This document shows positions 16,416 to 32,206 of a stretch of DNA of 64,000 bases, in pieces (the first letter of the stretch is position 1; each line of letters opens with the position of its first letter). The DNA comes from Gammaproteobacteria bacterium HGW-Gammaproteobacteria-1. GTDB taxonomy: Bacteria > Pseudomonadota > Gammaproteobacteria > Thiohalomonadales > Thiohalomonadaceae. The position numbers were made by a program, and so were the translations under genes. The notes below the pieces were generated by a model. It was given only the letters and a program-made list of their open reading frames with translations, had not been told where the DNA came from and made no database searches. Where the stretch lies: contig PGZL01000005.1 in NCBI GenBank assembly GCA_002840095.1, positions 248,001 to 312,000 on the forward strand, in the 5' to 3' direction.

Positions 16416-17459
16416 ATGCGCTCCGATCTTCACACCCTCACTGCGCAGGTGCAACACAACTGCCACATCTCCGATGCCCGCCACGCGCGCAACTATTCGC
16501 TGTGCATCTACCTGCTCAAGATGCGCGAATACTTCCGCTGGGAGAGGGGCTATGGCTACAGCGAACGGCTGCCTGAAAAGGAACTGGGCGACTGGCTGAT
16601 GGAACGGGAGCACCTGTGGGGAGAGATTGAGGAACAGGACTACCACCCCATCGAGCTGGATGCCACGCATTATCCCCCTTTCGAGTCCGAGAGCATCAAC
16701 GACTGCTTGTTGCCCTCGGGCCTGGCCTACAGCGGCGGTTACGGCGGCCTGTCCAAGCCCCATTTCTTTCTCGCCGAACTGCACCAGGTGGAGGAGCGCC
16801 ACGGCCGGCGCATCCTGGTCACCGGCAAGGAATATGCCCGTGACCTCACCGCCCCACCGGCCATGACGCTCAATGGCGAGGTGTATGTGCGGCGCGAGTC
16901 ACTGCGCCGCATGCTGTGGGAGAAGATCGAGGAGTGGCGCTGGCACCGGCACGACAACGCCATGGCCCGCGCCATCGCCTTTTACCCGGTGGACAGCGCG
17001 CTTGAATCCGCCCTGGACAGCATGACGGAGACCGAGACTGAGGCGGTGATCCTGCACGAACTGGGCGAGGTCGAGGCCGGCCTCCTGTTCGGCCCGGCCT
17101 GGGAACGCATGCTGAACGCCTTGTGGCATACCCGGGCGGAGCTGGCGGCGCGCGCGGTACGTGACCACCTGGCCGATACCCTGGTGACGCTGCCCACCCT
17201 GCTGCGGGAGCAGCGCGTCGCCTCGCTGCACTTCTACTTCGCCAACCTGAGCGGCATGCGCCAGGCCCTGTTTCCGTCGCTGCAGGCGGCCTACCGCCAC
17301 TGGCAAGAGCACGGCAGCCTGGTACAGCTGGAAGAGTACGTGGATCGCGGCCAGGAACACTGGCATGAAGTGGGCGAGCGCCTGTTGCGCGCCTACGGAG
17401 AAAACGACAACGGCGCGGCTGAGCGCCTGGACGGCCTGCTGGACGAAATCAACCTGTAA
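16416..17459 (+). CDS. conserved protein of unknown function (Sfum_1244-like; possible DsrS candidate)
   Basis: The 347-residue protein is predicted from ATG 16416. The open frame extends further upstream, but that part overlaps the divergent gene. The N terminus holds VQHNCHISDARHARNYSLC and YLLKMREYFRWERG, a Cys/His-containing, well-ordered region. From memory this resembles the uncharacterised Sfum_1244-type family often found in sulfur bacteria. It is soluble and acidic. No gene after dsrR here resembles dsrS, which closes the Allochromatium dsr operon. This protein, of about 40 kDa and close to dsr, is a candidate, but only size and location support that. Confidence 0.65.
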   Translation: MRSDLHTLTAQVQHNCHISDARHARNYSLCIYLLKMREYFRWERGYGYSERLPEKELGDWLMEREHLWGEIEEQDYHPIELDATHYPPFESESINDCLLPSGLAYSGGYGGLSKPHFFLAELHQVEERHGRRILVTGKEYARDLTAPPAMTLNGEVYVRRESLRRMLWEKIEEWRWHRHDNAMARAIAFYPVDSALESALDSMTETETEAVILHELGEVEAGLLFGPAWERMLNALWHTRAELAARAVRDHLADTLVTLPTLLREQRVASLHFYFANLSGMRQALFPSLQAAYRHWQEHGSLVQLEEYVDRGQEHWHEVGERLLRAYGENDNGAAERLDGLLDEINL

Positions 17460-17506: not shown

Positions 17507-17845
17507 TTAATAACCGCCCTTGCGGCGGCTCTCCGGCAGGCCGGCAATCTTGCCTGCCTGCTTGGAGGGCTGCATCGGGAACAGCTCGTACAGGTCCTTG
17601 GACTGCACCGGGGTACCCCACTTGTCGGACATCGCCTTGACGATGTTGCGATCGTTGGGCTGGTTGCCGCCGTTGTTGATGTACTCGTCGCGCAGGAAAT
17701 TGATCAGGTCCCAGGACTTCTCGGTCAGGGTCACGCTCTCGCTGGCGGCGATGGCCTTGGCCACATCCTCGTTCCAGTCTTCGATATTTTCCAGATAACC
17801 GTTGGCATTGGTAGCAATGGTCGTGCCGTTCACTTCGTAAGCCAT
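17507..17845 (-). CDS. DsrC/TusE-family protein lacking both C-terminal cysteines (RspA-like)
   Basis: The 112-residue protein clearly aligns with DsrC: it shares GYLENIEDWNEDVA, SWDLINFLRDEY and DLYELFPMQPSKQAGKIAGLP with the true DsrC at 23662. True DsrC ends in two redox cysteines, and TusE keeps the last one. Here the arm reads KQAGKIAGLPESRRKGGY, and the whole protein contains no cysteine. It therefore cannot carry sulfur as a persulfide or trisulfide. Cys-less DsrC homologues have been named RspA and proposed to be regulatory (from memory). It is the last gene of the operon divergent from dsr, 45 bases after the Cas6-like gene, with its own strong ribosome site (GGAGAG). Confidence 0.9.
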   Translation of the reverse strand: MAYEVNGTTIATNANGYLENIEDWNEDVAKAIAASESVTLTEKSWDLINFLRDEYINNGGNQPNDRNIVKAMSDKWGTPVQSKDLYELFPMQPSKQAGKIAGLPESRRKGGY

Positions 17846-17890: not shown

Positions 17891-18568
17891 TTATTCAGAA
17901 TTAACTTTATTAATTGATTTGTGCGCTATAAACAGGCCGCAACCCAGTGCGCGATGGGGCCCCAGTCCCCGCTGCTGCAGGGTTACGGCATCCTCGGGCG
18001 GCAGGTCGGCAACCATCAGGCTGCGCACAAAAATCGGCCCCTCCGGGGTTTCAAAGTGGTGCGGTATACCCGCCAGCACCTTCTTGAACCGCAGTCCCAT
18101 GGCGCGCATCTCCTGCACGGCCTCGGCCACGAACTGCTCCTCGTCCTGTCCTTCGGGCGCCGCAATATAGCGGGAGTACAACGTGGCTGCGGGGCTGAGA
18201 TGCACCACGCGAGCCTCGCCCACCACCATGGCATTGCCGGCGATATCGAGGGTCTGTCCCGTCAGGGCACGCGCATTTTCCACTCTATCCCGGGCCAGAC
18301 GCAAGACGAGAGGCGTGCGGCGTGACAGATAGAGCAGGTCGGCCGCCCCCGAAGGGCGCTCCCAGCCGTTGCCGGAATCGGCCACGTGTATCAGGTGCAG
18401 GCCGTCACTGGGCTCGTCCCCGAACCAGGGCAGCGCGCGGCGCACCGCCATGGCCAGAGGATAGGCGTGATCCACCGGCAGGGTACGGCAATCAATGCTG
18501 AACGCCAGATCGACCACGTCGTCCGGGACGGTGTAGGCCTTGTTCTGTATGTCCTCTTGCCAATACAT
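17891..18568 (-). CDS. Cas6/Cmx6-like (RAMP superfamily) protein, stand-alone
   Basis: The 225-residue protein matches the Cmx6 (type I-MYXAN Cas6) pattern as I remember it. It has DLAFSIDCRTLPVDHAYPLA at the N terminus, RRTPLVLRLARDRV and VVHLSPAATLYSRYI in the middle, and the glycine-rich loop LGPHRALGCGLFIAHKS at the end. Cas6 proteins cut CRISPR-repeat RNA; His34 lies where a catalytic histidine could be. No CRISPR array or other cas gene occurs in this window. Only three bases separate its start from the stop of the preceding gene, implying translational coupling. Between a gene of unknown function and a DsrC paralogue, it is more likely tied to sulfur metabolism than to defence; that is inference. 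Confidence 0.75.
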   Translation of the reverse strand: MYWQEDIQNKAYTVPDDVVDLAFSIDCRTLPVDHAYPLAMAVRRALPWFGDEPSDGLHLIHVADSGNGWERPSGAADLLYLSRRTPLVLRLARDRVENARALTGQTLDIAGNAMVVGEARVVHLSPAATLYSRYIAAPEGQDEEQFVAEAVQEMRAMGLRFKKVLAGIPHHFETPEGPIFVRSLMVADLPPEDAVTLQQRGLGPHRALGCGLFIAHKSINKVNSE

Positions 18569-19324: not shown

Positions 19325-19504
19325 TCAGGAGGTAAACGCGGCCTCGAGCCGGTCTTCCCAGTTTTCCGGCGTGTTCTCATAGGTCGGCTTGACGTCGATA
19401 CGGAAAAACATCTCGCCCCTGGCCCGCTGGCGCACCATCTCCACAAGATCTTCAAAGTCGTCCAGCTGCGGATTCTGGATCATGATTTCACTCAGATAAA
19501 GCAT
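19325..19504 (-). CDS. 59-residue conserved-looking small protein, first gene of dsr-divergent operon
   Basis: A 59-codon frame runs from ATG 19504 to TGA 19325, with GGAAGAG just upstream as ribosome site. The peptide starts MLYLSEIMIQNPQLDDFEDL and ends ENWEDRLEAAFTS. It is acidic and free of Cys. It fills the space before the 238-residue gene (36-base gap) and has the GC pattern of a coding frame. It is the first gene transcribed away from dsrA. I know no family for it. Confidence 0.55.
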   Translation of the reverse strand: MLYLSEIMIQNPQLDDFEDLVEMVRQRARGEMFFRIDVKPTYENTPENWEDRLEAAFTS

Positions 19505-19777: not shown

Positions 19778-19851
19778 AATAATAATGTTTTTATAGACTT
19801 ATAAGCCATATTCCATAGATATTTTGTATATCCCATTCAGGATAGCTCCAT

Positions 19852-19867
19852 CCCCCCCCTCCCCCCC
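19852..19867. repeat. C8-T-C7 homopolymer tract in the dsr leader
   Basis: Eight C residues, one T and seven C residues in a row form a strongly asymmetric tract about 195 bases upstream of dsrA. The minus strand is G7-A-G8, able in principle to form a quadruplex. Such runs change length by slippage. Confidence 0.8.
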
Positions 19868-19961
19868 ATCGGAAGGATACTTTGCTTCATAATGAACTTC
19901 TAAACTTCGCGCCATGTTGAAAAGGACCGTGTGGTTTCGTCCTCTTCAGACAGGTAGTTGT

Positions 19962-20061: not shown

Positions 20062-21318
20062 ATGGCTACTAAGATGCATAACACCCCGATGCTGGACCAG
20101 CTGGAGAGCGGCCCGTGGCCGTCCTTCGTTACCGGCCTGAAGCGCCTGGCTAACGACGAGGGCAAGCCCTACGCCGATATGATGAAGGACCTGCTCGGTC
20201 AGCTGGAAACCTCCTACACCACCCGTAAGGGCTACTGGAAGGGCGGTACCGTTGGCGTGGTCGGTTACGGCGGCGGCGTCATTCCCCGCTTCACCGAGCT
20301 GCTGGACGAGAACAAGAAGCCCCTGTTCCCGAAGGCTGCCGAGTTCCACACCCTGCGTATCATGCCGCCCGCCGGCATGCACTACACCACCGACATCATG
20401 CGCAAGTTCTGCGACGTGTGGGACAAGTACGGCTCCGGCCTGATTGCCTTCCACGGCCAGTCCGGCGACATCATGTTCCAGGGCTGCACCACCGAGAACG
20501 TCCAGCCGGCGTTCGACGAAATGAATGAAATGGGCTTCGACCTGGGTGGCGCCGGCCCCGCCGTGCGTACCGGCATGTCCTGCGTCGGTGCCGCTCGCTG
20601 CGAGCACTCCTGCGCCAACGAGCAGCGCATTCACCGCACCCTGGTGAACCGCTTCCTCGACGACATGCACCGCCCGGCCCTGCCGTACAAGTTCAAGTTC
20701 AAGGTTTCCGGCTGCCCCAACGACTGCATGAACTCCATCCAGCGCGCTGACCTGGCCACCATCGGCACCTGGCGCGACGACATGAAGGTCGACCAGGCCG
20801 AAGTGAAGAACTTCGTCAACGCCAAAGGCCGCAAGTACGTCATCGACAACGTCATCACCCGTTGCCCGACCCAGGCCCTGAGCCTGAACGACGACGACAC
20901 CCTGGCTGTCGACAACAAGAACTGCGTCCGCTGCATGCACTGCATCAACGTCATGACCAAGGCGCTGTCCCCCGGCGACGACAAGGGCGTAACCCTGCTG
21001 GTGGGCGGCAAGCGCACTCTGAAGATCGGCGACCTGATGGGCACCGTCGTGGTTCCCTTCATGAAGCTCGAGACCGACGAGGACTACGAAGCTCTGGAAG
21101 AGCTGGCCGGCAACATGATCGACTTCTTCGCCGAAAACGCCCTGGAACACGAGCGTACCGGTGAGATGATCGAGCGTATCGGCCTGGTCAACTTCCTCGA
21201 AGGTATCGGCGTCGAAATCGATCCCAACATGATCACCAACCCGCGTATGAACCCGTACGTGCGTATGGATGGCTGGGACGACGAGGCCCAGAAGTGGTTC
21301 GAGCGTAAGGCTGGCTAA
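20062..21318 (+). CDS. dsrA: reverse dissimilatory sulfite reductase, alpha subunit
   Basis: The 418-residue protein is DsrA. With DsrB it forms the cytoplasmic alpha2-beta2 siroheme enzyme, which in sulfur oxidizers oxidizes DsrC-bound sulfur toward sulfite. The siroheme-coupled [4Fe-4S] cysteines are Cys174, Cys180, Cys218 and Cys222 (spacing x5, x37, x3). A ferredoxin-like domain inserted near residues 280-310 has NCVRCMHCINVM. The oxidative direction is inferred from dsrEFH and dsrL in the same operon, which sulfate reducers usually lack in this form. Codon use is very restricted, as in highly expressed genes. GGGAGA precedes the ATG. Confidence 0.98.
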   Translation: MATKMHNTPMLDQLESGPWPSFVTGLKRLANDEGKPYADMMKDLLGQLETSYTTRKGYWKGGTVGVVGYGGGVIPRFTELLDENKKPLFPKAAEFHTLRIMPPAGMHYTTDIMRKFCDVWDKYGSGLIAFHGQSGDIMFQGCTTENVQPAFDEMNEMGFDLGGAGPAVRTGMSCVGAARCEHSCANEQRIHRTLVNRFLDDMHRPALPYKFKFKVSGCPNDCMNSIQRADLATIGTWRDDMKVDQAEVKNFVNAKGRKYVIDNVITRCPTQALSLNDDDTLAVDNKNCVRCMHCINVMTKALSPGDDKGVTLLVGGKRTLKIGDLMGTVVVPFMKLETDEDYEALEELAGNMIDFFAENALEHERTGEMIERIGLVNFLEGIGVEIDPNMITNPRMNPYVRMDGWDDEAQKWFERKAG

Positions 21319-21339
21319 CAGATCAGTCCCATAGCGACG

Positions 21340-21371
21340 GCGGGGCGTCCCGGGCAACCGGTACGCCCCGC
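21340..21371 (+). promoter_or_regulatory. strong hairpin between dsrA and dsrB
   Basis: A perfect nine-base-pair stem (GCGGGGCGT, 21340-21348, with 21363-21371) continues, after one mismatch, as CCGG/CCGG closed by a GCAA tetraloop of the GNRA type. No T tract follows, so it is better read as a stability or processing element than as a terminator. Confidence 0.7.
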
Positions 21372-21414
21372 AAACTAAATAACGACGAATTTCTGAGTGT
21401 AATTGGAGGTAATT

Positions 21415-22485
21415 ATGTCTGCACCTCGCATGCCCATCGAGAGTGGTGTACCGGATCCGTTCCCGTATATGCACCCCACGCTGAAGAAGAACTTCGGCCA
21501 GTGGAAGTATCACGATCGTCCGCGCCCCGGCGTTCTGCACCACGTCGCCAAGACCGGTGAGGAAGTCTGGACCGTGCGCGCCGGTACCCAGCGCCAGATG
21601 GACACCTACACCATCCGCAAGCTGATGGACATCGCCGACCAGTTCGCTGACGGCTATGTGCGCTTCACCATCCGTTCCAACATCGAGTACATGGTTACCG
21701 ACGAGAAGAAGGTCCAGCCGCTGATCGACAAGCTGCAGGCCGAAGGCTTCCCCGTCGGCGGCACCGGCAACTCCGTGTCCATGATCTCCCACACCCAGGG
21801 CTGGCTGCACTGCGACATCCCCGGCACCGACGCCTCCGGCGCCGTGAAGGCCCTGATGGATGAGCTGTACCACGAGTTCACCCACGAAGAGATGCCGAAC
21901 CGCGTGCGCATGACCACCTCCTGCTGCCAGATCAACTGCGGCGGCCAGGGTGACATCGCCATCAACATCCAGCACACCAAGCCGCCCAAGATCAACCATG
22001 ACCTGGTGGCCAACGTGTGTGAGCGTCCGTCCGTTGTGGCCCGTTGCCCGGTAGCGGCCATCCGCCCGGCCATGGTCAACGGCAAGCCCTCGCTGGAAGT
22101 CGACGAGAAGAAGTGCATCTGCTGCGGCGCCTGCTTCCCGCCCTGCCCGCCGATGCAGATCAACGATCCGGAGCACTCCAAGCTGGCCATCTGGGTCGGC
22201 GGCAAGAACTCCAACGCCCGTTCCAAGCCGACCTTCCACAAGCTGGTCGCCGCTGGTATCCCCAACAACCCGCCGCGCTGGCCTGAAGCCGCCGCTGTGG
22301 TGAAGAACATCCTGGGTGCCTACAAGAAGGATGCCAAGGACTACGAGCGTATGAACGAGTGGATCGACCGTATCGGTTGGCCGCGCTTCTTCGAGCTGAC
22401 CGGCCTGCCGTTCACCAAGTACCACATCGACAACTGGCGTGGTGGCCGCGTGAACCTCAACGCCTCTGCTCACATCCGCTTCTGA
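21415..22485 (+). CDS. dsrB: reverse dissimilatory sulfite reductase, beta subunit
   Basis: The 356-residue protein starts at ATG 21415, with GGAGGT at 21405-21410. DsrB supplies the catalytic siroheme of the sulfite reductase. The siroheme/FeS region has TTSCCQINCGGQGD and later CERPSVVARCP. The inserted ferredoxin domain carries KCICCGACFPPCPPM. Length and motifs match other oxidative-type DsrB. It follows dsrA after a 96-base gap that holds a stable hairpin, and precedes dsrE by 24 bases. Confidence 0.98.
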   Translation: MSAPRMPIESGVPDPFPYMHPTLKKNFGQWKYHDRPRPGVLHHVAKTGEEVWTVRAGTQRQMDTYTIRKLMDIADQFADGYVRFTIRSNIEYMVTDEKKVQPLIDKLQAEGFPVGGTGNSVSMISHTQGWLHCDIPGTDASGAVKALMDELYHEFTHEEMPNRVRMTTSCCQINCGGQGDIAINIQHTKPPKINHDLVANVCERPSVVARCPVAAIRPAMVNGKPSLEVDEKKCICCGACFPPCPPMQINDPEHSKLAIWVGGKNSNARSKPTFHKLVAAGIPNNPPRWPEAAAVVKNILGAYKKDAKDYERMNEWIDRIGWPRFFELTGLPFTKYHIDNWRGGRVNLNASAHIRF

Positions 22486-22509
22486 TAAACGGATAAAAGG
22501 AAGAGGTCC

Positions 22510-22902
22510 ATGAAGTTTACGATTCAGGTTAACGAAGGCCCGTACACTCATCAGGCATCTGATACGGCGTACAACTTCGCCACCGCAGCGCTGGCGGCAG
22601 GACACGAAATCTATCGCGTGTTCTTCTATCACGACGGCGTCAACAACGCGACCCGTCTGACCACTCCGCCGCAGGATGATCGCAACGTGATCAACCGCTG
22701 GAGTGAGCTGGCTGCCAAGCACAGCCTCGATCTCGTTGTATGCGTAGCCGCGGCCCAGCGCCGCGGCATCGCTGACGCCGATGAGGCCCGGCGCAATGGC
22801 AAGAACGCCGACAACATCGCTCCCGGTTTCCGGATCTCCGGTCTGGGCCAGCTGATCGAGGGCGGTATTCAAGCCGATCGCCTCGTCGTGTTTGGCGATT
22901 GA
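22510..22902 (+). CDS. dsrE: sulfurtransferase subunit DsrE
   Basis: The 130-residue protein is the catalytic subunit of the DsrE2F2H2 sulfur-transfer complex, which receives sulfane sulfur (from TusA in known systems) and hands it to DsrC. Cys78 in DLVVCVAAAQRRG is at the same number as the essential cysteine of Allochromatium DsrE. The end, GLGQLIEGGIQADRLVVFGD, is typical. AGGAAGAGG precedes the ATG. The presence of dsrEFH is a genomic marker of sulfur oxidation. Confidence 0.97.
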   Translation: MKFTIQVNEGPYTHQASDTAYNFATAALAAGHEIYRVFFYHDGVNNATRLTTPPQDDRNVINRWSELAAKHSLDLVVCVAAAQRRGIADADEARRNGKNADNIAPGFRISGLGQLIEGGIQADRLVVFGD

Positions 22903-22918
22903 TACGGGAGAGAGTGTG

Positions 22919-23308
22919 ATGAGTGACGAAGAAATGATGGAAGGCGGCGTGCAGAAGAAGTTCTGCTATGTGAACCGCACGGCTCCGTACGGTACGGTTT
23001 ACGCGCTGGAAGCTTTGGAAGTGGTGCTGATCGGCGCCGCCTTCGAGCAGGACGTCTCCGTAGTCTTTATGGACGACGGCGTATTCCAGCTCGCCAAGGG
23101 GCAGGATACCGCCGGTATCGGCATGAAGAACTTCTCCCCCACCTACCGTGCGCTCGAGATGTACGACGTTGAAAAACTGTACGTCTCCAAGGAGTCGCTG
23201 GAAGAGCGTGGCCTGAGCGAAGACGACCTGCTGGTGGACGTCGAAGTGAAGACCGCGGCTGAAATCCGCGACCTTATGGAAGAGCAGGACGTGCTCCTGA
23301 CCTTTTAA
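22919..23308 (+). CDS. dsrF: sulfurtransferase complex subunit DsrF
   Basis: The 129-residue protein starts at ATG 22919 (ribosome site GGGAGAG). It has the DsrE/F fold, with APYGTVYALEALEVVLIGAAF and a long acidic C-terminal half. The only cysteine, in KKFCYVNRT, is in the N-terminal strand and not at the DsrE active position, in line with DsrF being structural in the hexamer. It follows dsrE by 16 bases and precedes dsrH by 14. Confidence 0.97.
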   Translation: MSDEEMMEGGVQKKFCYVNRTAPYGTVYALEALEVVLIGAAFEQDVSVVFMDDGVFQLAKGQDTAGIGMKNFSPTYRALEMYDVEKLYVSKESLEERGLSEDDLLVDVEVKTAAEIRDLMEEQDVLLTF

Positions 23309-23322
23309 CCGGGGAAGACGAA

Positions 23323-23622
23323 ATGCTGCATACCGTAAATAAGTCGCCGTTTCAGAAGAACACCTTTGAAAGCTGCATCAAGCACGCTGCAAAAGGCAGC
23401 GCCGTCCTGTTGATCGAGGATGGCGTCTACGCTGCACTGAAGGGCACCTCCGTGTCCGCCGAAGTGCAGCAGGCCATGGGTGATATCACCTTTTACGCCC
23501 TGGAGCCGGATGTTAATGCTCGTGGTCTGAAGGGCAAAGTGATGGATGGTGTCAATCTGGTCGATTACGCCGGGTTTGTTGACCTGACCGTCAAGTTTGA
23601 TCGTGTTCAATCCTGGCTGTAA
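23323..23622 (+). CDS. dsrH: sulfurtransferase complex subunit DsrH
   Basis: The 99-residue protein is the smallest subunit of DsrEFH. The conserved cysteine is Cys18 in TFESCIKHA (Cys20 in Allochromatium numbering, from memory). The typical segments VLLIEDGVYAAL and VNLVDYAGFVDLTV are present. It acts with DsrE and DsrF in the cytoplasm. dsrC follows after 39 bases. Confidence 0.97.
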   Translation: MLHTVNKSPFQKNTFESCIKHAAKGSAVLLIEDGVYAALKGTSVSAEVQQAMGDITFYALEPDVNARGLKGKVMDGVNLVDYAGFVDLTVKFDRVQSWL

Positions 23623-23661
23623 GCCTATTCATTCAATCCAACTGATTGAGGAGATAATGTC

Positions 23662-23997
23662 ATGGGTACTATGACTGCTGGTGGTAAGACTGTAGAAGTC
23701 GATGAGGAAGGTTACCTGGTCAACATCAACGACTGGAACCGCGATATCGCTGTGGAGCTGGCCAAGTCCGAGAACGTCGAGATGACCGACTCCCACTGGG
23801 AAGTTATCGACTTCCTGCGCGAGTACTACAACGAGTACCAGATCGCTCCCGCTGTCCGCGTTCTGACCAAGGCCATCGGCAAGAAGCTTGGCCCTGAGAA
23901 GGGCAACAGCAAGTACCTGTACGAGCTGTTCCCGTACGGTCCCGCCAAGCAGGCCTGTAAGATCGGTGGCCTGCCGAAGCCGACCGGCTGCATCTAA
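23662..23997 (+). CDS. dsrC: sulfur-carrier protein DsrC
   Basis: The 111-residue protein is a true DsrC. Its flexible C-terminal arm KQACKIGGLPKPTGCI holds both redox cysteines, Cys99 and Cys110. They carry the sulfur as persulfide or trisulfide between DsrEFH, DsrAB and DsrMKJOP. A strong GAGGAGA ribosome site precedes the ATG. A hairpin followed by T residues lies just after the stop, so dsrC may be expressed above the downstream genes. Compare the Cys-less paralogue at 17507. Confidence 0.98.
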   Translation: MGTMTAGGKTVEVDEEGYLVNINDWNRDIAVELAKSENVEMTDSHWEVIDFLREYYNEYQIAPAVRVLTKAIGKKLGPEKGNSKYLYELFPYGPAKQACKIGGLPKPTGCI

Positions 23998-24007
23998 GTT
24001 GCGCCCT

Positions 24008-24035
24008 GGGGGGCGCTTGCGCCCCCCACCCTTTT
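24008..24035 (+). terminator. terminator-like hairpin (attenuator) between dsrC and dsrM
   Basis: GGGGGGCG (24008-24015) pairs with CGCCCCCC (24020-24027) around a CTTG loop, followed by ACCCTTTT. The T run is short, so partial termination is likely. This would favour dsrABEFHC over the membrane-complex genes. Confidence 0.65.
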
Positions 24036-24061
24036 CAATTCTCTAGCGAGGGTCGATACGA

Positions 24062-24790
24062 ATGTCGTTCCTGACAGTGCTCTACGCACTCTTGTTCTAT
24101 ACCGCCACGGCGTTATTCATCGTCGGCCTGGCCTACAAGATTCGCCAGTACGCCACGACGCCCGCACCGCTCAAGATTCCCACCACACCTGCGCCGACCA
24201 CTACCAGTGGCGTGGTGTTGCGCATGGCCCGCGAGGTCGTGCTGTTTGAAAGCCTGTTCAAGGGCACCAAGTGGACCTGGCTTTTCGGTTGGATGTTCCA
24301 TGTATCCCTGGCCCTGGTTATCCTGCGCCACTTCCGCTATTTCCAGGAGCCGGTCTGGGGGATCATCACCTTCATCCAGCCGTTCGGCATGTACGCCGGC
24401 TTCTTCATGGTCCTGGGCCTGCTCGGTCTGTGGGCGCGCCGCATCTTCGTCGAGCGCATCCGCTATATCAGCGGGCCATCCGACCACCTGATGCTCGCCC
24501 TGCTGGTCGGCATCGGCGCCTCCGGCCTGATGATGAAGTTCGTCAAGCACACGGACATCGTTTCGGTAAAGGCCTTCTTCCTCGGCCTGATGCGCTTCGA
24601 TCTGCAACCCCTGCCCGCCGATGCGCCGCTGCTGGTACACCTCGGTCTGGTTGCCGCGTTGCTCATCATCTTTCCTTTCAGCAAGCTGCTGCATGCCCCC
24701 GGGGTATTCTTCAGCCCGAGCCGCAACCAGGTCGATAACCCGCGTGAACGCCGCCATCTGGCGCCGTGGGCCGCCGAGCTGGACAAGTAA
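24062..24790 (+). CDS. dsrM: DsrM, membrane cytochrome b subunit of DsrMKJOP
   Basis: The 242-residue protein is a NarI-like integral membrane cytochrome b with about five to six membrane helices; the first covers about residues 3-25. Histidines in the helices (for example VSLALVILRHFRYF and MLALLVGIGASGLMMKFVKH) are candidate heme ligands. It passes electrons between DsrK and the quinone pool. The start lies 64 bases after dsrC, beyond the attenuator-like hairpin. Length is that of the short DsrM form. Confidence 0.96.
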   Translation: MSFLTVLYALLFYTATALFIVGLAYKIRQYATTPAPLKIPTTPAPTTTSGVVLRMAREVVLFESLFKGTKWTWLFGWMFHVSLALVILRHFRYFQEPVWGIITFIQPFGMYAGFFMVLGLLGLWARRIFVERIRYISGPSDHLMLALLVGIGASGLMMKFVKHTDIVSVKAFFLGLMRFDLQPLPADAPLLVHLGLVAALLIIFPFSKLLHAPGVFFSPSRNQVDNPRERRHLAPWAAELDK

Positions 24791-24827
24791 CCGAACTTTA
24801 GCGCTTTGAACGTATAAGGAGAAACGC

Positions 24828-26396
24828 GTGGCTGCAGCCAAGTTTGACACGCCGAACATGCGGGAGTACCCGAGCATTCCTGCCCTCCAGCCGGATGCGA
24901 CGGCGCACCTGAAGTCTTACCTTGCGGCGCCGGATCACAACACCTTCCTCGGTTTCCCCGGGGAGTTGGTGGAAAACTGGCAGGAAAAGGCCATCGAGAA
25001 GATGGGCGACCTGCTGGGCAAATATCGCGGCTTCCGCGTGTATATGGATGCCTGCGTCAAGTGCGGCTCCTGCACCGACAAGTGCCACTACTTCCAGGGT
25101 ACCTCCGACCCGAAGAACATGCCGGTGGCGCGCCAGGATCTCCTGCGCAGCGTCTATCGCCGCCATTTCACCTTCGCCGGCAAGTACATCCCCTGGCTGG
25201 TCGGCGCCCGCGACCTGACCCGCGAAGTGCTGGACGAATGGTACAGCTACTTCCATCAGTGCTCGCAGTGCCGCCGTTGCTCGGTGTTCTGCCCCTACGG
25301 CATCGACACCGCCGAAGTTTCCATGGCCGCCCGCGAAATCATGGACTCCATCGGCTACGGCCAGAAGTACTGCAACGAGATCCTCGGCAAGGTGCAGAAG
25401 ATCGGCAACAACCTGGGCCTGCCCGGCCCGGCGCTGGAAGCCACGCTGGAGGAGTTCGCGGAAGAGATTTCCGATGAAACCGGCTGCGACGTGAAGATCC
25501 CGCTGGACGTGGAAGGCGCCGACGTGCTGCTGATCACCCCGTCCGCCGATTTCTTCGCCGAGCCGCACATCGACGGCCTGATGGGTTATGCCAAGGTGTT
25601 CCACGCCGCCGGCATCAGCTGGACCCTGTCCACCTATGCCTCGGAAGCGGCCAACTTCTCCATGTTCATCGGTTCCTACTCGAACATGAAGAAAGTCGCC
25701 GAGCGCATCCGCAAAGCCGCCATCGACCTCAAGGTCAAGCGCATCATCGTCGGCGAGTGCGGCCATGCCTGGCGTGTGGCGTACAGCTTCTGGAATACGC
25801 TGACCGGCGTCGGTTCCGGCGCTGACGACCCGTATGCACTGCAGTTGCAGAAGCAGCTGGATCACAGCTACCCGATCCCGCAGCACATCTGCGAGTTCAC
25901 CTGGGACCTGATCCAGCAGGACAAGCTCACCTTCGACAAGTCCCAGAACGATCACCGCACGGTGACCTTCCACGACTCGTGCAATGTGGCGCGTGCGACC
26001 CGCATGGGTACCGAGCCGGGCGGCCAATTCGATATCCCGCGCAACGTCATCAAGGCGGTGTGCAACAACTATGTCGACATGGATCCCGACACCATCCGCG
26101 AAGTGACTTACTGCTGCGGCGGTGGCGGCGGCCTGCTGACCGACGATTTGATGGAACTCCGTGTCAAGGGCGCCCTGCCCCGCATGGAGGCCCTCAAGAG
26201 AGTGATTGACGAAGACAAGGTTAATGCCATGGCGGCGATCTGTGCCATCTGCAAGGCGCAGTTCAGCAAGATCATGCCGTATTACGGCATCCCCATGGAC
26301 ACCATCGTCAGCCTCCACCAGCTGGTGAAGGACGCAATCATTCTTCCGGGGCAAGGGGAAGAAGAAGCGGAGCCGGCGGCAGAGGCCTCCGAGTAA
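24828..26396 (+). CDS. dsrK: DsrK, HdrD-like iron-sulfur subunit of DsrMKJOP
   Basis: The 522-residue cytoplasmic protein (GTG start, AAGGAG upstream) resembles the catalytic subunit HdrD of heterodisulfide reductase. Two [4Fe-4S] motifs lie near residues 76 (CVKCGSCTDKCHYF) and 145 (CSQCRRCSVFCPYG). A CCG-type domain supplies VGECGHAWR, FHDSCNVARATR and TYCCGGGGGLL for the noncubane catalytic cluster. It is the proposed site of DsrC disulfide or trisulfide chemistry. The C terminus is a short acidic Glu/Ala tail. Confidence 0.97.
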   Translation: MAAAKFDTPNMREYPSIPALQPDATAHLKSYLAAPDHNTFLGFPGELVENWQEKAIEKMGDLLGKYRGFRVYMDACVKCGSCTDKCHYFQGTSDPKNMPVARQDLLRSVYRRHFTFAGKYIPWLVGARDLTREVLDEWYSYFHQCSQCRRCSVFCPYGIDTAEVSMAAREIMDSIGYGQKYCNEILGKVQKIGNNLGLPGPALEATLEEFAEEISDETGCDVKIPLDVEGADVLLITPSADFFAEPHIDGLMGYAKVFHAAGISWTLSTYASEAANFSMFIGSYSNMKKVAERIRKAAIDLKVKRIIVGECGHAWRVAYSFWNTLTGVGSGADDPYALQLQKQLDHSYPIPQHICEFTWDLIQQDKLTFDKSQNDHRTVTFHDSCNVARATRMGTEPGGQFDIPRNVIKAVCNNYVDMDPDTIREVTYCCGGGGGLLTDDLMELRVKGALPRMEALKRVIDEDKVNAMAAICAICKAQFSKIMPYYGIPMDTIVSLHQLVKDAIILPGQGEEEAEPAAEASE

Positions 26397-26411
26397 AAAA
26401 TTCACATCCCG

Positions 26412-26430
26412 CGGTGAAACCGTTTCACCG
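26412..26430 (+). promoter_or_regulatory. hairpin between dsrK and dsrL
   Basis: CGGTGAAA (26412-26419) pairs perfectly with TTTCACCG (26423-26430) around CCG, and three more C-G pairs follow after one mismatch. No T tract follows. It sits just before the dsrL ribosome site. Confidence 0.6.
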
Positions 26431-26465
26431 GGGGGAGACAAGGCTACAGGCATAGGAGATTGAAA

Positions 26466-28454
26466 ATGGCAACTTCTAGCGACGACATGAAGAAAAGCTT
26501 TACCTACCGCCGCTACAAGGACGGTGACAGCAGGCACCTTCCTTTCTCCCAGGAAATCTGGCAGGCGAGCTGGACCCACAAGTGTCCGACCTACGTGCAC
26601 CGCACCCCGCCCTGCCAGGGTAGCTGCCCCTCCGGTCACGAAATCCGCGGCTGGCTGGACATCGTGCGCGGCATCGAGAAGCCGACTGCCGGCATGACCA
26701 TGCAGGAGTACGCCTTCCGCCGCAACACCAATGCCAACCCGTTCCCGGCCATCATGGGCCGTGTCTGCCCGGCGCCCTGCGAAGACGGCTGCAACCGCAA
26801 CCAGGTGGACGACCACGTCGGCATCAACTCCGTCGAGCAGTACATCGGTGACCAGGCCCTGGCCAACTGCTACAAGTTCGAAGCCGGTGCCGACAGCGGC
26901 AAGAAAGTCGCCGTCATCGGTGGCGGCCCGGCCGGCCTCGCCGCCGCCTACCAGCTGCGCCGCAAGGGTCACGCCGTGACCGTGTTCGAGCAGAAGGAAC
27001 AGCTGGGCGGCATGATGCGCTACGGCATTCCCGGCTACCGTACCCCGCGCGACGTGCTGGACGGTGAAATCAACCGTATCGTCGAGATGGGCGTCACCAT
27101 CAAGACCGGCGTGAAGATCGGCAAGGACATCACCGTCGAGCAGCTGGCCAAGGATTTCAACGCCGTGCTGTTCGCCATGGGTGCCTGGTCCGGCCGCAGC
27201 CTGCCGATCCCCGGTGCCGACGCCGTCAACTGCATCACCGGCGTCGCCTTCCTGGCCGCCTTCAACGAAGGCCGCCTGAAGCACGTCAGCGGCAAGGTCG
27301 TGGTCATTGGCGGTGGTGACACCTCCATCGACGTCGCCTCCGTCGCCCGCCGTCTCGGCCACATCACCGTCGAGAACGAAAAGGACCGTCCGGAGCACGT
27401 CATCATCAACCAGACCGCCCACGACGTGGCCATGACCGCCAACCGTCAGGGCGCCGACGTCATGCTGATGTCCCGCTCCCCGATCAGCAAGATGCCGGCT
27501 GCACAGCACGAAATCGAAGATGCCACCCGTGAAGGCGTGGAAATCGCCGGCCAGCTGAGCCCGGTGGAAGTGATCAAGGGTGCCGACGGCCGTGCCACCG
27601 CCCTGCGCGTGGTCAAGCTGGAAGAAGACGGCAAGACCCCCATCGCCGGCTCCGAGTACGACATTCCGTGCGAACTGATCGTCGCCGCCATCGGCCAGAC
27701 CGGTGACGTGGCCGGTTTCGAAGGCTTCGCCAACGACAAGGGCCTGATCGGTGCCGACAAGCACTTCCAGGTTCCCGGCAAGCCCGGCTTCTTCGCCTGT
27801 GGCGACATCGTGCGTCCGCACCTGCTGACCACCGCCATCGGCCAGGCCTCCATCGCCGTGGAAAGCATCGAGCACTACCTGAACAATGAAGAGTTCGCGC
27901 ACCGCCCGAAGGTGGACGTGCACCACTTCAACCTGATGGAAAAGCTGATGGAAACCGGCCTGCAGCCCGAGCATTTCGAAGCGGCTGCCAAGGATGCCAT
28001 CGAGAAGGCTGAAGGCTTCGCCAAGGATATCGACCGCGGTCTGCGCGGTACCTCCGACGCCAAGTTCGCGGTGCACAACTACGAAGACCGCTCCTTCGCC
28101 GAAATCATCCCGGCCGACGAGCTGTTCCTGGGGCACTTCAACTACACCCCGCGCAACAAGCGTGACCACGTCATGGTCAACGCCGACGAAGTTCTGGGCC
28201 ACTTCCAGGAGCGTCTGGTTGCGCTGGACGAAAAGCAGGTGGTGGACGAGGCCAAGCGCTGCATGAGCTGCGGCATGTGCTTCGAGTGCGACAACTGCGT
28301 GGTGTTCTGCCCGCAGACCGCGGTGAAGCGCGTTCCGGCCAAGGAGAAGACCACCGGCCGTTACGTTTACACCGACTACTCGATGTGCATCGGTTGCCAC
28401 ATCTGCGCTGATGTGTGTCCGACCGGCTACATCCAGATGGGTATGGGCGACTAA
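26466..28454 (+). CDS. dsrL: DsrL, NAD(P)H-linked FAD/iron-sulfur oxidoreductase
   Basis: The 662-residue protein starts at ATG 26466 after TAGGAG; a TTG two codons upstream is less likely. It is related to the small subunit of glutamate synthase. The N-terminal iron-sulfur region has PPCQGSCPSGHEIRGW. The FAD-binding GGGPAGLAAAYQL is near residue 152 and a second Rossmann motif, IGGGDTSIDVAS, near 282. Two C-terminal [4Fe-4S] motifs follow: CMSCGMCFECDNCVVFCP near 599 and CIGCHICADVCPTGY near 641. In oxidizers it takes electrons from DsrAB and reduces NAD(P)+. Codon bias is as strong as in dsrAB. Confidence 0.97.
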   Translation: MATSSDDMKKSFTYRRYKDGDSRHLPFSQEIWQASWTHKCPTYVHRTPPCQGSCPSGHEIRGWLDIVRGIEKPTAGMTMQEYAFRRNTNANPFPAIMGRVCPAPCEDGCNRNQVDDHVGINSVEQYIGDQALANCYKFEAGADSGKKVAVIGGGPAGLAAAYQLRRKGHAVTVFEQKEQLGGMMRYGIPGYRTPRDVLDGEINRIVEMGVTIKTGVKIGKDITVEQLAKDFNAVLFAMGAWSGRSLPIPGADAVNCITGVAFLAAFNEGRLKHVSGKVVVIGGGDTSIDVASVARRLGHITVENEKDRPEHVIINQTAHDVAMTANRQGADVMLMSRSPISKMPAAQHEIEDATREGVEIAGQLSPVEVIKGADGRATALRVVKLEEDGKTPIAGSEYDIPCELIVAAIGQTGDVAGFEGFANDKGLIGADKHFQVPGKPGFFACGDIVRPHLLTTAIGQASIAVESIEHYLNNEEFAHRPKVDVHHFNLMEKLMETGLQPEHFEAAAKDAIEKAEGFAKDIDRGLRGTSDAKFAVHNYEDRSFAEIIPADELFLGHFNYTPRNKRDHVMVNADEVLGHFQERLVALDEKQVVDEAKRCMSCGMCFECDNCVVFCPQTAVKRVPAKEKTTGRYVYTDYSMCIGCHICADVCPTGYIQMGMGD

Positions 28455-28465
28455 GGGTGAACCCG

Positions 28466-28963
28466 ATGAAGCGTTTATTGCAGCTTCTCTCCATGGCGGT
28501 GCTGGCGCTGACTCTGTCGGCGCCGGCCCTCGCCGGCGAAGGTGGGCGGACTCCCCTGCCCACCATTCCCGCGGCCAAGGGCGACCAGTGCGTGGAAGAC
28601 ACGGCGGATATGCGTCGTAATCACATGAAGTATCTGAAGCACCATCGCGACGAGACCATGCATCAGGGCATCCGTACCGAAAAGTACAGCCTGAAGCAGT
28701 GTCTGGAATGCCACGTTCCGGCGGAAGGCAGCATGGCCGCCGGCGGCAAGGAAAGCGAAGGCCACTTCTGCGTCAACTGCCACGTCTATGCCGGCGTGAC
28801 CCTTGACTGCTTCGAATGCCACGCCACCAAGCCGGAAACCACCGCGCAGTTCCATCCGCTGGTAAGCCCGGCAGCCATGAAGGCGGAACGTCCCGACTCC
28901 AACGGACTGCTCAATCGTCTGGTTGGCGTTACAGAGAACAAGACAGGTGTTGCCCATGAGTGA
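28466..28963 (+). CDS. dsrJ: DsrJ, periplasmic triheme cytochrome c
   Basis: The 165-residue protein starts at ATG 28466 (a GTG three codons earlier is possible). The signal peptide ends at ALA-GE near residue 23. Three heme-binding CxxCH motifs lie at 79-83, 102-106 and 115-119. Cys42 is an extra cysteine that could provide the unusual His/Cys heme ligation known for DsrJ. It works with DsrO on the periplasmic side of DsrMKJOP. Its end overlaps the start of dsrO by eight bases, so the two are translationally coupled. Confidence 0.97.
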   Translation: MKRLLQLLSMAVLALTLSAPALAGEGGRTPLPTIPAAKGDQCVEDTADMRRNHMKYLKHHRDETMHQGIRTEKYSLKQCLECHVPAEGSMAAGGKESEGHFCVNCHVYAGVTLDCFECHATKPETTAQFHPLVSPAAMKAERPDSNGLLNRLVGVTENKTGVAHE

Positions 28964-29711
28964 ACACAAGCAACCGGATCTGGCTCGCCGTGAGTTGCTC
29001 GGCCGCGGTGCCGCCATAGCGGCCGCCGGCGTGACGCTGGCGCCCGGCGTCATGCTCTACGGCGTGGCCCAGGCCAAGCCGGCCGACGAGCCGGTAAGCA
29101 GCAAGGTACGCTGGGGCATGCTGGTGGACACCACCAAGTGCAGCAGCGGCTGCAATGCCTGCGTCGAGGCCTGCGACAAGGAACACGGCCTGGGCAACGA
29201 ACAGCACAGCCGCGACGGCCAGCGCACCCAGTACATCCGCAAGGTCGAGTTGCGCCACAAGTTCACCGGCGCCACTCACTCGCTGCCGGTGATGTGCCAG
29301 CACTGCGAAACCCCGCCCTGCGTGGACGTCTGCCCCACCGGCGCGTCCTTCAAGCGCGCCGACGGCATCGTGCTGGTGGACCGCCACATCTGCATCGGCT
29401 GCCGCTACTGCATGATGGCCTGCCCCTACAAGGCACGCTCATTCGTGCACGAGGCTCTGACCGACCAGCGTCCGCACACGCCGCGCGGCAAGGGTTGCGT
29501 CGAGTCCTGCACCCTGTGCGTGCACCGCGTCGACGAAGGCCGCGAACCCGCTTGCGTCGAGGCCTGTGCCGCCGACGGCAGCCGCGCGATCATCTTCGGT
29601 GACCTGAACGACCCCAATAGCGAAATCGCCCAGCGCGTTAAGACCTATGCCAGCAGCGAGATTCGCGCTGACCTCGGTCTCAACACCGGCGTCCGCTATC
29701 AGGGCATTTAA
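28956..29711 (+). CDS. dsrO: DsrO, Tat-exported iron-sulfur subunit
   Basis: The 251-residue protein starts at ATG 28956, inside the dsrJ end. The N terminus has the twin-arginine signal ARRELLGRGAAIAAAG, so the folded protein is exported. The ferredoxin-like part has four cysteine clusters typical of the DmsB/NrfC family: CSSGCNACVEAC, CQHCETPPCVDVCP, CIGCRYCMMACP and CTLCVHRVDEG. It connects DsrJ hemes with DsrP in the membrane. Length is normal. Confidence 0.97.
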   Translation: MSEHKQPDLARRELLGRGAAIAAAGVTLAPGVMLYGVAQAKPADEPVSSKVRWGMLVDTTKCSSGCNACVEACDKEHGLGNEQHSRDGQRTQYIRKVELRHKFTGATHSLPVMCQHCETPPCVDVCPTGASFKRADGIVLVDRHICIGCRYCMMACPYKARSFVHEALTDQRPHTPRGKGCVESCTLCVHRVDEGREPACVEACAADGSRAIIFGDLNDPNSEIAQRVKTYASSEIRADLGLNTGVRYQGI

Positions 29712-29731
29712 CGGGATGGTGAACTTCTAGC

Positions 29732-30934
29732 ATGAAAAAAACACAATTCATGGAGATCGGAGGCGGCAAGGGCTTTTACGGCCTGCTCGCCCTCTTGGGT
29801 GCCGTCATCGTGGCCGGCCTGGGTGCGTTCTTCTATATGGAACACACCGGCCACTGGGTAACGGGGATGGACAACCAGATCGTGTGGGGCGCCCCGCACG
29901 TCTTCGCCATCTTCCTCATCGTCGCTGCATCCGGTGCGCTCAACGTGGCTTCCATCGGCACGGTGTTCGGCAAGAAGATGTACCAGCCGCTGGCGCGGAT
30001 GTCCGCCCTGCTGGCCATCGCGCTGCTCATCGGCGGCCTGACGGTGCTGGTGCTGGATCTGGGTCGCCCGGATCGCCTCATCGTGGCGATGACCCACTAC
30101 AACTTCAAGTCGATCTTCGCCTGGAACATCATCCTGTATAACGGCTTCCTCGCCCTGGTCGCCGTGTACATCTGGACGATGCTGGATCCCACGGTGAAGA
30201 AGTTCTACAAGATGGCCGGTTTCGCCGCCTTCGTCTGGCGTCTGATCCTGACCACCGGTACCGGCTCCATCTTCGGCTGGCTGGTGGCCCGGCAGGCCTA
30301 CGACGCGGCCATCTTCGCGCCGATGTTCATCGTCATGTCCTTCTCCTTCGGCCTGGCGATTTTCCTGCTGGTGACGATGGCCACCTACAACTGGACCAAT
30401 CGCCCGCTGGGCGATGCGGTGATCCGCCGTCTGAAGAACCTGCTCGGCGTGTTCGTCGCCGGCGTGCTGTTCTTCGTGGCGGTCTATCACCTGAGCAACC
30501 TCTACGCCACCGAGCATCACGGCGTGCAGGCCTTCATCCTGCGCGACGGCGGCGTGTTCACCCAGGCGTTCTGGTTCGGCCAGATCCTGCTGGGCAGCCT
30601 GCTGCCGCTGGCCCTGCTCTACCATCCGGCCACCGGCGGTTCGCGCTTCTGGATCGGCATCGCCTCCGCGCTGATCATCGTCGGCGGCTTCGCCCAGCTG
30701 TTCGTGATCCTCATCGGCGGTCAGGCCTACCCGCTGGTGATGTTCCCCGGCTACGAGGTAGCCAGCAGCTTCCATGACGGCGTGATCAACAGCTACAGCC
30801 CGAGCCTGCCCGAGCTGGTGCTGGGCTTCTCCGGCATCGGCGTCGCCATGGCGATGATGGTGGTCGGCATGAAGGTGCTGCGTCTGGCCCCGGCCAGCCT
30901 GGCGGACGAAGTGGCTGATCCGCATCACAAGTAA
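29732..30934 (+). CDS. dsrP: DsrP, NrfD-like membrane quinone-interacting subunit
   Basis: The 400-residue protein has about ten hydrophobic helices (for example GLLALLGAVIVAGLGAFFYM at the N terminus) and the NrfD/PsrC fold. It anchors DsrO and DsrJ and exchanges electrons with quinone. It is the last gene of dsrMKLJOP. A palindromic repeat and a strong hairpin follow, so transcription may partly stop here. Confidence 0.97.
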   Translation: MKKTQFMEIGGGKGFYGLLALLGAVIVAGLGAFFYMEHTGHWVTGMDNQIVWGAPHVFAIFLIVAASGALNVASIGTVFGKKMYQPLARMSALLAIALLIGGLTVLVLDLGRPDRLIVAMTHYNFKSIFAWNIILYNGFLALVAVYIWTMLDPTVKKFYKMAGFAAFVWRLILTTGTGSIFGWLVARQAYDAAIFAPMFIVMSFSFGLAIFLLVTMATYNWTNRPLGDAVIRRLKNLLGVFVAGVLFFVAVYHLSNLYATEHHGVQAFILRDGGVFTQAFWFGQILLGSLLPLALLYHPATGGSRFWIGIASALIIVGGFAQLFVILIGGQAYPLVMFPGYEVASSFHDGVINSYSPSLPELVLGFSGIGVAMAMMVVGMKVLRLAPASLADEVADPHHK

Positions 30935-30943
30935 CGGAAGGAG

Positions 30944-31014
30944 GTAGGAGCCGAGTCCCCACCGCGAACAGCGTTGGACTCGCTCCCGCCTTCGCCCGCG
31001 GAGTGGGCTCCTAC
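30944..31014. repeat. palindromic intergenic repeat (family B, gtaggagc type)
   Basis: GTAGGAGCC at the left and GGGCTCCTAC at the right form the ends of an inverted repeat with further short pairs inside. Related copies lie at 45963-46033 and 53183-53261, and partial copies near 44911 and 61605. Confidence 0.75.
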
Positions 31015-31035
31015 CGCAATACGTCCGGTGATCAT

Positions 31036-31063
31036 GCCAATGCCCCTTTCCAGGGGCATTGGC
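31036..31063 (+). terminator. hairpin terminator after dsrP
   Basis: A perfect 11-base-pair stem, GCCAATGCCCC with GGGGCATTGGC, closes a six-base loop and is followed by GTTTC. It would end or weaken dsr transcription before the gene at 31200. The T tract is short. Confidence 0.65.
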
Positions 31064-31199
31064 GTTTCTGACGGGGCAAAAACCTGGTGCCGCAACAGTG
31101 GTAAAATCGCGGCCCTGCCCCTATAACGGCTGTATTGCGTACTCAGGCCCGCTCCGCCCCCGGCGGGCAGTGACCATCCCAACTTCGAGGTGACCGGGC

Positions 31200-32201
31200 A
31201 TGACCCAAGAACATCCGTTTGCACAATACGTCCGCATACTCGGCAAGGGCCGCAACGGTTCCCGCGGTCTTGCCGCCGAGGAGGCCTATGAGGCCTTCCG
31301 CCTGATCATGAGCGACCAGGTCGAGCCCATCCAGCTCGGCGCCTTTCTGATGCTGATGCGCGTCAAGGAAGAGACTCCGGAAGAAGTCGCCGCCGCGGTG
31401 CGCGCCATCCGCGAGTCCCTGACCGTTCCCGCCAACGCTCCCAAAGTGGACCTGGACTGGTCCAGCTACGCAGGCAAGAAGCGCCAGCTGCCCTGGTACC
31501 TGCTGTCCACCCTGCTGCTGGCCGAAAGCGGCGTGCGCATCTTCATGCACGGCGCCAGTGGCCACACCGCCGGCCGCATCTACACCAAGGAAGTGCTGCC
31601 CCGGCTCGGGGTCCCCGTCGCACGCAGCTTCGACGAGGCCTGCCGCCAGATCGAAAGCGGCAACTTCGCCTATCTCGACCTCGAATACCTGAGCCCCAAG
31701 CTGCACCAGATCATCGAAATGCGCCCCCTGCTGGGCCTGCGCTCGCCGGTGCACACCATCGCCCGCATGCTCAACCCCCTCGACGCTCCCTGCGCCATGC
31801 AGAGCGTGTTCCACCCCGGCTACCGCGACATCCATCAGGAAGCCGGCAAGCTGCTGGAGCAGCCGCATATGGCGGTGATCAAGGGCGAAGGCGGCGAGAT
31901 CGAACGCAACCCCGATATCGCCTGCCTGGTACGCCTGGTGCGTGAAGGCGAAATGTCCGAGGAAGAGTGGCCGCCGATGTTCGACAAGCGCCACATTCGC
32001 CAGGACGACCTGGAGGTGGGCCATCTGATGCAGGTGTGGGACGGCAGCCGCGAGGACGAGTACGGCATCGGCGCCGTCGTCGGCACCGTGGCGGTCACCC
32101 TCTACACCATGGGCCGCGCCAGGGACCGCGACGAGGCCGAGGCCCAGGCCCTGGCCATGTGGCAGAACCGCAACAAGAACCGCTTCCGCGCCGCCGCCTG
32201 A
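31200..32201 (+). CDS. TrpD2/YbiB-like phosphoribosyltransferase-fold protein
   Basis: The 333-residue protein has the anthranilate phosphoribosyltransferase fold. The N-terminal helical domain (GSRGLAAEEAYEAFRLIMSD) is followed by a core with FMHGASGHTAGRIYTKE where the PRPP-binding glycine loop would be, and AVIKGEGGEIERNP in the middle. It is the YbiB/TrpD2 kind, annotated as a glycosyltransferase family protein, and not the tryptophan enzyme. YbiB proteins bind nucleic acid; enzyme activity is doubtful. It lies between dsrP and dsrN with a five-base gap to dsrN. Its role in sulfur oxidation is unknown. Confidence 0.85.
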   Translation: MTQEHPFAQYVRILGKGRNGSRGLAAEEAYEAFRLIMSDQVEPIQLGAFLMLMRVKEETPEEVAAAVRAIRESLTVPANAPKVDLDWSSYAGKKRQLPWYLLSTLLLAESGVRIFMHGASGHTAGRIYTKEVLPRLGVPVARSFDEACRQIESGNFAYLDLEYLSPKLHQIIEMRPLLGLRSPVHTIARMLNPLDAPCAMQSVFHPGYRDIHQEAGKLLEQPHMAVIKGEGGEIERNPDIACLVRLVREGEMSEEEWPPMFDKRHIRQDDLEVGHLMQVWDGSREDEYGIGAVVGTVAVTLYTMGRARDRDEAEAQALAMWQNRNKNRFRAAA

Positions 32202-32206
32202 TCCCC

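Follow-up and report, generated by a model that had tools for sequence, protein, structure and literature searches.

Cas6 proteins are the RNases that trim CRISPR RNAs, cleaving hairpin or repeat RNA in a metal-independent way. On cyanobacterial plasmids, the CRISPR-linked Cas6 gene is followed by cas3, cas8/cmx and cas5, whereas the Cas6 gene described here is accompanied by dsr and DsrC genes. Post-transcriptional control of dsr is known from A. vinosum, where it is exerted by DsrR, an IscA-like protein. Our gene lies in a 64-kb window of Gammaproteobacteria bacterium HGW-Gammaproteobacteria-1 (the whole stretch of DNA that was analysed), and its neighbours are dsr, a DsrC paralogue and two genes that we call P238 and p59; no other cas gene is among them, and the neighbourhood typical of type I-MYXAN is missing. 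In the open-access literature, to which our search was confined, no report of a link between Cas6 and dsr was found, and the papers containing both cas6 and dsr terms deal with regular CRISPR systems or mention cas6 and dsr in separate places. The protein described here is recognized as a Cas6-family member from its sequence, its active site and its predicted fold, yet its context and its module are not those of CRISPR.

The 225-residue product is certainly a member of the Cas6 family. It matches PF09559 (Cas6) over positions 1-191 of 191 (E 6.7e-59, 199.5 bits, cutoff 26.7), TIGR02807 (Cas6/Cmx6) over positions 3-196 of 197 (120.8 bits, cutoff 98.85) and the PADLOC Cas6 profile (E 2e-56). The motifs TLPVDHAYPLA, HLSPAATLYSRYI and GPHRALGCGLF all fall within its open reading frame, and the two features that mark the family, a histidine near helix 1 and a C-terminal G-rich loop, are both present. 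An AlphaFold model built with 57 homologues (mean pLDDT 88.7) shows the tandem ferredoxin-like RAMP fold of Cas6. Its top match among solved structures is 8fcj_B, a Cas6 from a type I-B CAST (Z 24.3; rmsd 2.1 for 198 aligned residues), and this CAST Cas6 is also the only PDB match by sequence. The next structural matches are Cas6 chains of Pyrococcus, Thermus and others, with many Cas6 chains at Z 9-16. The preliminary description had recognized the Cmx6-type pattern and named a profile search and a structure prediction as checks, and its assignment is borne out by both, with a clear RAMP/Cas6 match in each.

His34, which had been proposed as the catalytic residue, is found in 135/135 dsr-type Cas6 sequences, as are Arg84, Gly201 and Gly211, while Arg133 and Lys217 are almost invariant. 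Within the genus, the dN/dS of the gene is 0.09-0.22, indicating purifying selection. The invariant residues and the low dN/dS together argue for a retained biochemical activity. Because it sits where helix 1 begins, a place known from other Cas6 proteins, His34 may serve as the general base, and the fold and the invariant histidine suggest that the protein acts on RNA.

Table 1. Features of the Cas6 operon and the adjoining dsr locus (positions within the window).
Feature	Position	Strand	Description and evidence
DUF6866 gene	16494..17459	+	Convergent with the DsrC paralogue; often retained near the module
DsrC-family paralogue	17507..17845	-	No Cys, C-terminus RRKGGY; PF04358 2e-32, TIGR03342 3.7e-27
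Cas6-family gene	17891..18568	-	225 aa, ATG start; PF09559 / TIGR02807, presumed catalytic His34, G-rich loop GLGPHRALGCGLF
P238	18572..19288	-	238 aa, all-helical, TPR-like; partner gene in many loci; AlphaFold pLDDT 87.7
p59	19325..19504	-	59-aa conserved protein, first gene of the operon; tblastn, dN/dS
dsrA upstream element	19829..19906	+	nhmmer and MAFFT over about 36 loci; putative functional element
Palindrome TATCCCATTCAGGATA	19829-19844	+	Part of the dsrA upstream element
Related second site CCCATCGGAAGGATA	19865-19879	+	Part of the dsrA upstream element
-10-like box CTAAACT	19900-19906	+	Part of the dsrA upstream element
Hairpin directly 3' of the -10-like box	19911..19955	+	Folding; presumed 5' end of dsr mRNA
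dsrABEFHCMKLJOPN cluster	20062..33544	+	ORFs, synteny across relatives, dsrA also by TIGR02064; divergent from the Cas6 operon
Hairpin, dsrA-dsrB gap	21340..21371	+	Mean z -2.0, 62 operons with the module
Hairpin, dsrC-dsrM gap	24008..24027	+	Mean z -2.4, 59 operons

The minus-strand operon runs from p59 through P238 and Cas6 to the DsrC paralogue (Table 1). The gene order first described, with a 3-base gap between the 238-residue gene and Cas6, a cysteine-less DsrC paralogue behind Cas6 and dsr divergent from the operon, was confirmed; p59, which also lies on the minus strand, had been missed. The p59 gene was detected by tblastn in more than 100 related loci (E down to 4e-35), and within the genus its dN/dS of 0.01-0.04 indicates very strong purifying selection; it has no match in Pfam or NCBIfam. 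Proteins of its sequence type (MLYLSEIMIQ...DTPENWEDRLEAAFTS) precede P238 or Cas6 in most loci. P238 likewise belongs to no family in Pfam or NCBIfam. Its model gave no Foldseek match with E <= 0.001 (best E 7.5e-3), and a second structural comparison gave Z values of up to 13.6 to helical repeats of the TPR/26S type, which is within the chance range for such repeats, so that no fold match of P238 stands out. In loci lacking P238, a gamma-butyrobetaine-dioxygenase-like Fe/2OG gene often stands between dsrA and the p59-Cas6 pair (e.g., L089:6816-7778, L105, L110 and L062), and p59 is mostly retained in these loci.

The product behind Cas6 lacks the two C-terminal cysteines of DsrC proper, which ends in PTGCI. 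The terminus KGGY is kept at almost every locus; a small number of sequences in our tally end in TGC, and these we read as canonical DsrC copies that the search picked up. Cysteine-less DsrC paralogues go by the name RspA in the literature. The conserved module thus consists of p59, P238 or the dioxygenase-like protein, Cas6, and a DsrC paralogue without the two C-terminal cysteines.

The distribution of the gene follows that of dsr. Among 369 gammaproteobacterial genomes drawn evenly from the class, PF09559 was present in 118 and DsrA in 119, with both in 111, one only in 7 and 8, respectively, and neither in 243. The Fisher p of 7e-75 for this co-occurrence overstates independence, as the counts ignore shared ancestry, yet the Cas6 gene spans 86 genera in the sample. 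In 82 genomes Cas6 and dsrA lie within 6 kb of each other, and all 82 pairs are divergent. Cas1, present in 135 of the 369 genomes, showed no association with PF09559 (p 0.13). In a sample across the phylum, the four Gammaproteobacteria with dsrA were exactly the four with PF09559, and 48 dsrA-bearing genomes from other classes lacked it. The association is therefore specific to Gammaproteobacteria in these samples, and the absence of Cas6 from those 48 genomes implies that it is not essential to Dsr chemistry. Nearly all dsr-bearing sulfur-oxidizing gammaproteobacteria carry the Cas6-family protein, usually beside dsr.

Closer relatives show the same picture. In the family of the host, PF09559 is present in 17 of 20 genomes. 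Of the remaining three, G002 and G016 have no dsrA either, and G010 does carry it. When named genomes were scanned with a profile, 386 relatives emerged, of which the 80 best come from sulfur oxidizers and gammaproteobacterial MAGs (among them Thiodiazotropha, Sedimenticola, Thiomargarita, Parabeggiatoa, Thioploca, Thioalkalivibrio denitrificans, Acidiferrobacterales and Muproteobacteria); most of these 80 have the DsrC paralogue behind cas6, and 63 have dsrA or dsrB on the fetched stretch. The gene is also kept in five genomes of 1.0-1.1 Mb (94-99% complete) that lack Cas1, and in the two whose loci were fetched it lies beside dsrA and is accompanied by the DsrC paralogue. Linkage is broken in a few genomes (G009, G010, G012, G128, G229 and G342). 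While several seemingly dsrA-only genomes are explained by contig ends near dsrA (L160-L162, L258), G010 and G229 have long sequence upstream of dsrA without Cas6 and are real local exceptions. The preliminary description had left to a survey whether the gene follows dsr or CRISPR arrays; in relatives it tracks dsr, and is not tied to arrays. Neither of the two outcomes named there as refuting came about, and the interpretation given there is supported in part. The recruitment of a Cas6-type protein to the dsr locus, as then suggested, is strongly supported by the co-occurrence, the divergent linkage and the independence from Cas1.

Candidate RNA substrates were sought at the locus. The consensus upstream of dsrA, derived from about 36 loci, comprises TATCCC-N4/5-GGATA, a related second site and a -10-like box CTAAAMT. 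The palindrome and the second site, which stand in tandem, look like operator DNA. According to a published report, DsrC binds to DNA in front of dsr (PMC5944118). As the mark of a genome-wide regulon the TATCCC-GGATA palindrome was rejected: it recurs exactly at only one further place in the host, where a gene read as glycogen phosphorylase begins; the second site is missing there, and the match was judged to be chance. The hairpin that follows the -10-like box varies in sequence but retains its pairing; at offsets 0 to +20 the mean z is about -1.1, with most other leader windows at about 0. Apart from the gaps listed in Table 1, the dsr gaps mostly contain no strong conserved hairpin. No known RNA family scored above threshold at the locus, and a sub-threshold match inside dsrB was judged to be chance. 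Within the Cas6 operon, no autoregulatory hairpin is conserved except behind the DsrC paralogue, where the hairpins are probably terminators; the short P238-Cas6 gap is also low (z -2.4, 19 gaps testable).

As a control we used 30 dsr operons of Cas6-less genomes, 5 of the reverse type and 25 with a lower-scoring DsrA. The dsrA-dsrB hairpin was present in 5/5 of the reverse-type operons (z -1.6 to -4.5) and mostly absent in the other 25; it does not, therefore, need Cas6. The intergenic hairpins were accordingly dropped as a Cas6-specific signature and are kept as candidate sites; being a feature of reverse dsr operons, they cannot alone identify the target of Cas6. Among the strong hairpins of the window (21340-21371 and 24008-24027) and of loci L222-L226, the one between dsrA and dsrB is oddly placed, since the products of these two genes are expected in equal amounts.

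We posit that a Cas6-family protein left CRISPR, joined the reverse-dsr locus of Gammaproteobacteria and may now serve as a domesticated RNA endonuclease whose substrate is dsr mRNA and whose sensing or adaptor parts would be the DsrC paralogue, p59 and P238; we assign this reading a probability of roughly 0.45. The protein would still bind RNA hairpins and probably cut at the hairpin base with His34. Its substrate would be the dsr mRNA, at the 5' hairpin or at the hairpins after dsrA and dsrC, and cleavage would determine the proportions of the dsrA, dsrEFH and dsrC messages. The DsrC paralogue, which has no C-terminal cysteines to carry sulfur, might signal the state of the sulfur relay to the RNase, and p59 and P238 might be adaptors. 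The fully specified version, in which a CRISPR-independent Cas6 cleaves hairpins of the polycistronic dsr mRNA under the control of a DsrC-like protein that lacks the C-terminal cysteines and reads the sulfur relay, we regard as rather unlikely. We counted in favour of the mechanism the Cas6 profiles and fold, the invariant residues including His34, the motifs shared with CRISPR-linked I-MYXAN Cas6, the dsrA linkage, the independence from Cas1, the retention in small genomes, the purifying selection, the separate branch of the dsr-linked proteins (support 100/99), the conserved hairpins, the DNA binding of DsrC and the transcript levels of A. vinosum, where dsrEFH and dsrC are reported to be more abundant than dsrA (PMC3397948, citing Grimm 2010). 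This imbalance fits differential processing, but would also fit internal promoters. Against the mechanism we counted the hairpin in Cas6-less operons, the 48 dsrA-bearing genomes without the gene, the operator-like palindromes and the exceptions to linkage.

The likeliest alternative is an RNA-binding regulator that no longer cuts, but holds a dsr mRNA hairpin and, jointly with the DsrC paralogue, governs how the message is translated or how stable it is. Cas6 proteins often remain bound to their own product, the Cas6 fold binds hairpins, and the dsr linkage speaks for this reading as well; moreover, a dsr-specific A(D/E)SGNGWxRP insert and a C-terminal PHK suggest an altered surface. Had catalysis been lost, however, a histidine invariant in all 135 sequences would be unexpected, and we consider such a regulator possible but doubtful.

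An active Cas6-type RNase might also have another substrate, such as a small RNA, a tRNA or the messages of other sulfur genes, and owe its link to dsr to being needed only during sulfur oxidation. This would agree with the persistence of the gene away from dsrA in G009 and G012 and with candidate dsr hairpins that are not specific to Cas6; the divergent orientation of all 82 neighbouring pairs, and the near absence of the gene outside the sampled dsr-bearing Gammaproteobacteria, speak against it and make it unlikely. In G009 (L025:1121-1792), the dsr-type Cas6 lies away from dsr, without a DsrC paralogue and with dsrA elsewhere in the genome, and has GreB-like and NYN-domain-like genes nearby (identities read by eye). 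A role in protein-protein contacts of sulfur trafficking only, for example in holding the DsrC paralogue, with the RNA-binding fold as a relic, could explain why a DsrC-family protein is the constant neighbour; given that the histidine and the G-rich RNA-binding loop are conserved across the family, we find it improbable.

No CRISPR-like array was found within the window, in agreement with what was first noted for it, and in a genome-wide profile search of the host Cas1 gave no match at all and Cas3 none above cutoff. Across 1.66 Mb of related loci there was no CRISPR array either; the four repeats flagged (in L060, L076, L093 and L098) were rejected as tandem repeats without unique spacers. 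That the protein is an ordinary CRISPR Cas6 serving arrays elsewhere in the genome in trans, as its profile similarity and NCBI family name might suggest, is largely refuted and highly improbable in view of the host's lack of Cas1 and of above-cutoff Cas3, the array-free loci, the independence from Cas1 in the class sample and the retention in genomes of about 1.0-1.1 Mb lacking Cas1.

One Cas6 lineage thus tracks sulfur oxidation over 86 sampled genera and persists in genomes of about 1 Mb without Cas1. If the domesticated-RNase reading is true, a CRISPR RNase has been taken over for core metabolism; on its fully specified version, most gammaproteobacterial sulfur oxidizers, including lineages with reduced genomes, would possess a direct control loop from sulfur to RNA. 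The finding points to a possibly overlooked regulatory layer in a main bacterial sulfur-oxidation route of vents, sediments and oxygen-minimum zones. The NCBI family model annotates the dsr-linked Cas6 as a CRISPR protein; in such genomes, a 'cas6' annotation is no evidence of CRISPR.

Compared with known systems, DsrR of A. vinosum offers a precedent for post-transcriptional control of dsr, although it is unrelated to Cas6. The DsrC / TusE family shares PF04358 and TIGR03342 with the paralogue of the window, which differs by the absence of cysteines, a conserved KGGY C-terminus and a fixed place behind cas6. The Cas6 of the type I-B CAST system (PDB 8fcj; 24% identity) belongs to a transposon Cascade and has Asn at the position of His34 in the dsr-linked family. 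In Gloeobacter morelensis, a plasmid-borne Cas6 of the PF09559 type (L188:2974-3765) adjoins a PAPS-reductase-family gene and a cupin gene, with no cas gene on the short stretch shown, and may represent another non-CRISPR context. The Cas6/Cmx6 of type I-MYXAN (e.g., on plasmid pSYLB of Synechocystis PCC 6714) is of the same protein family and predicted fold as the dsr-linked Cas6, with which it has about 22-30% identity. Both carry the DH motif with the presumed catalytic His and the GxGxxxxxGCG loop, and the His and the G-rich loop also occur in seven cyanobacterial plasmid homologues. The A(D/E)SGNGWxRP segment and the C-terminal PHK, in contrast, are missing from the I-MYXAN proteins and present in the dsr-linked Cas6, whose members form one side of a branch of their own.
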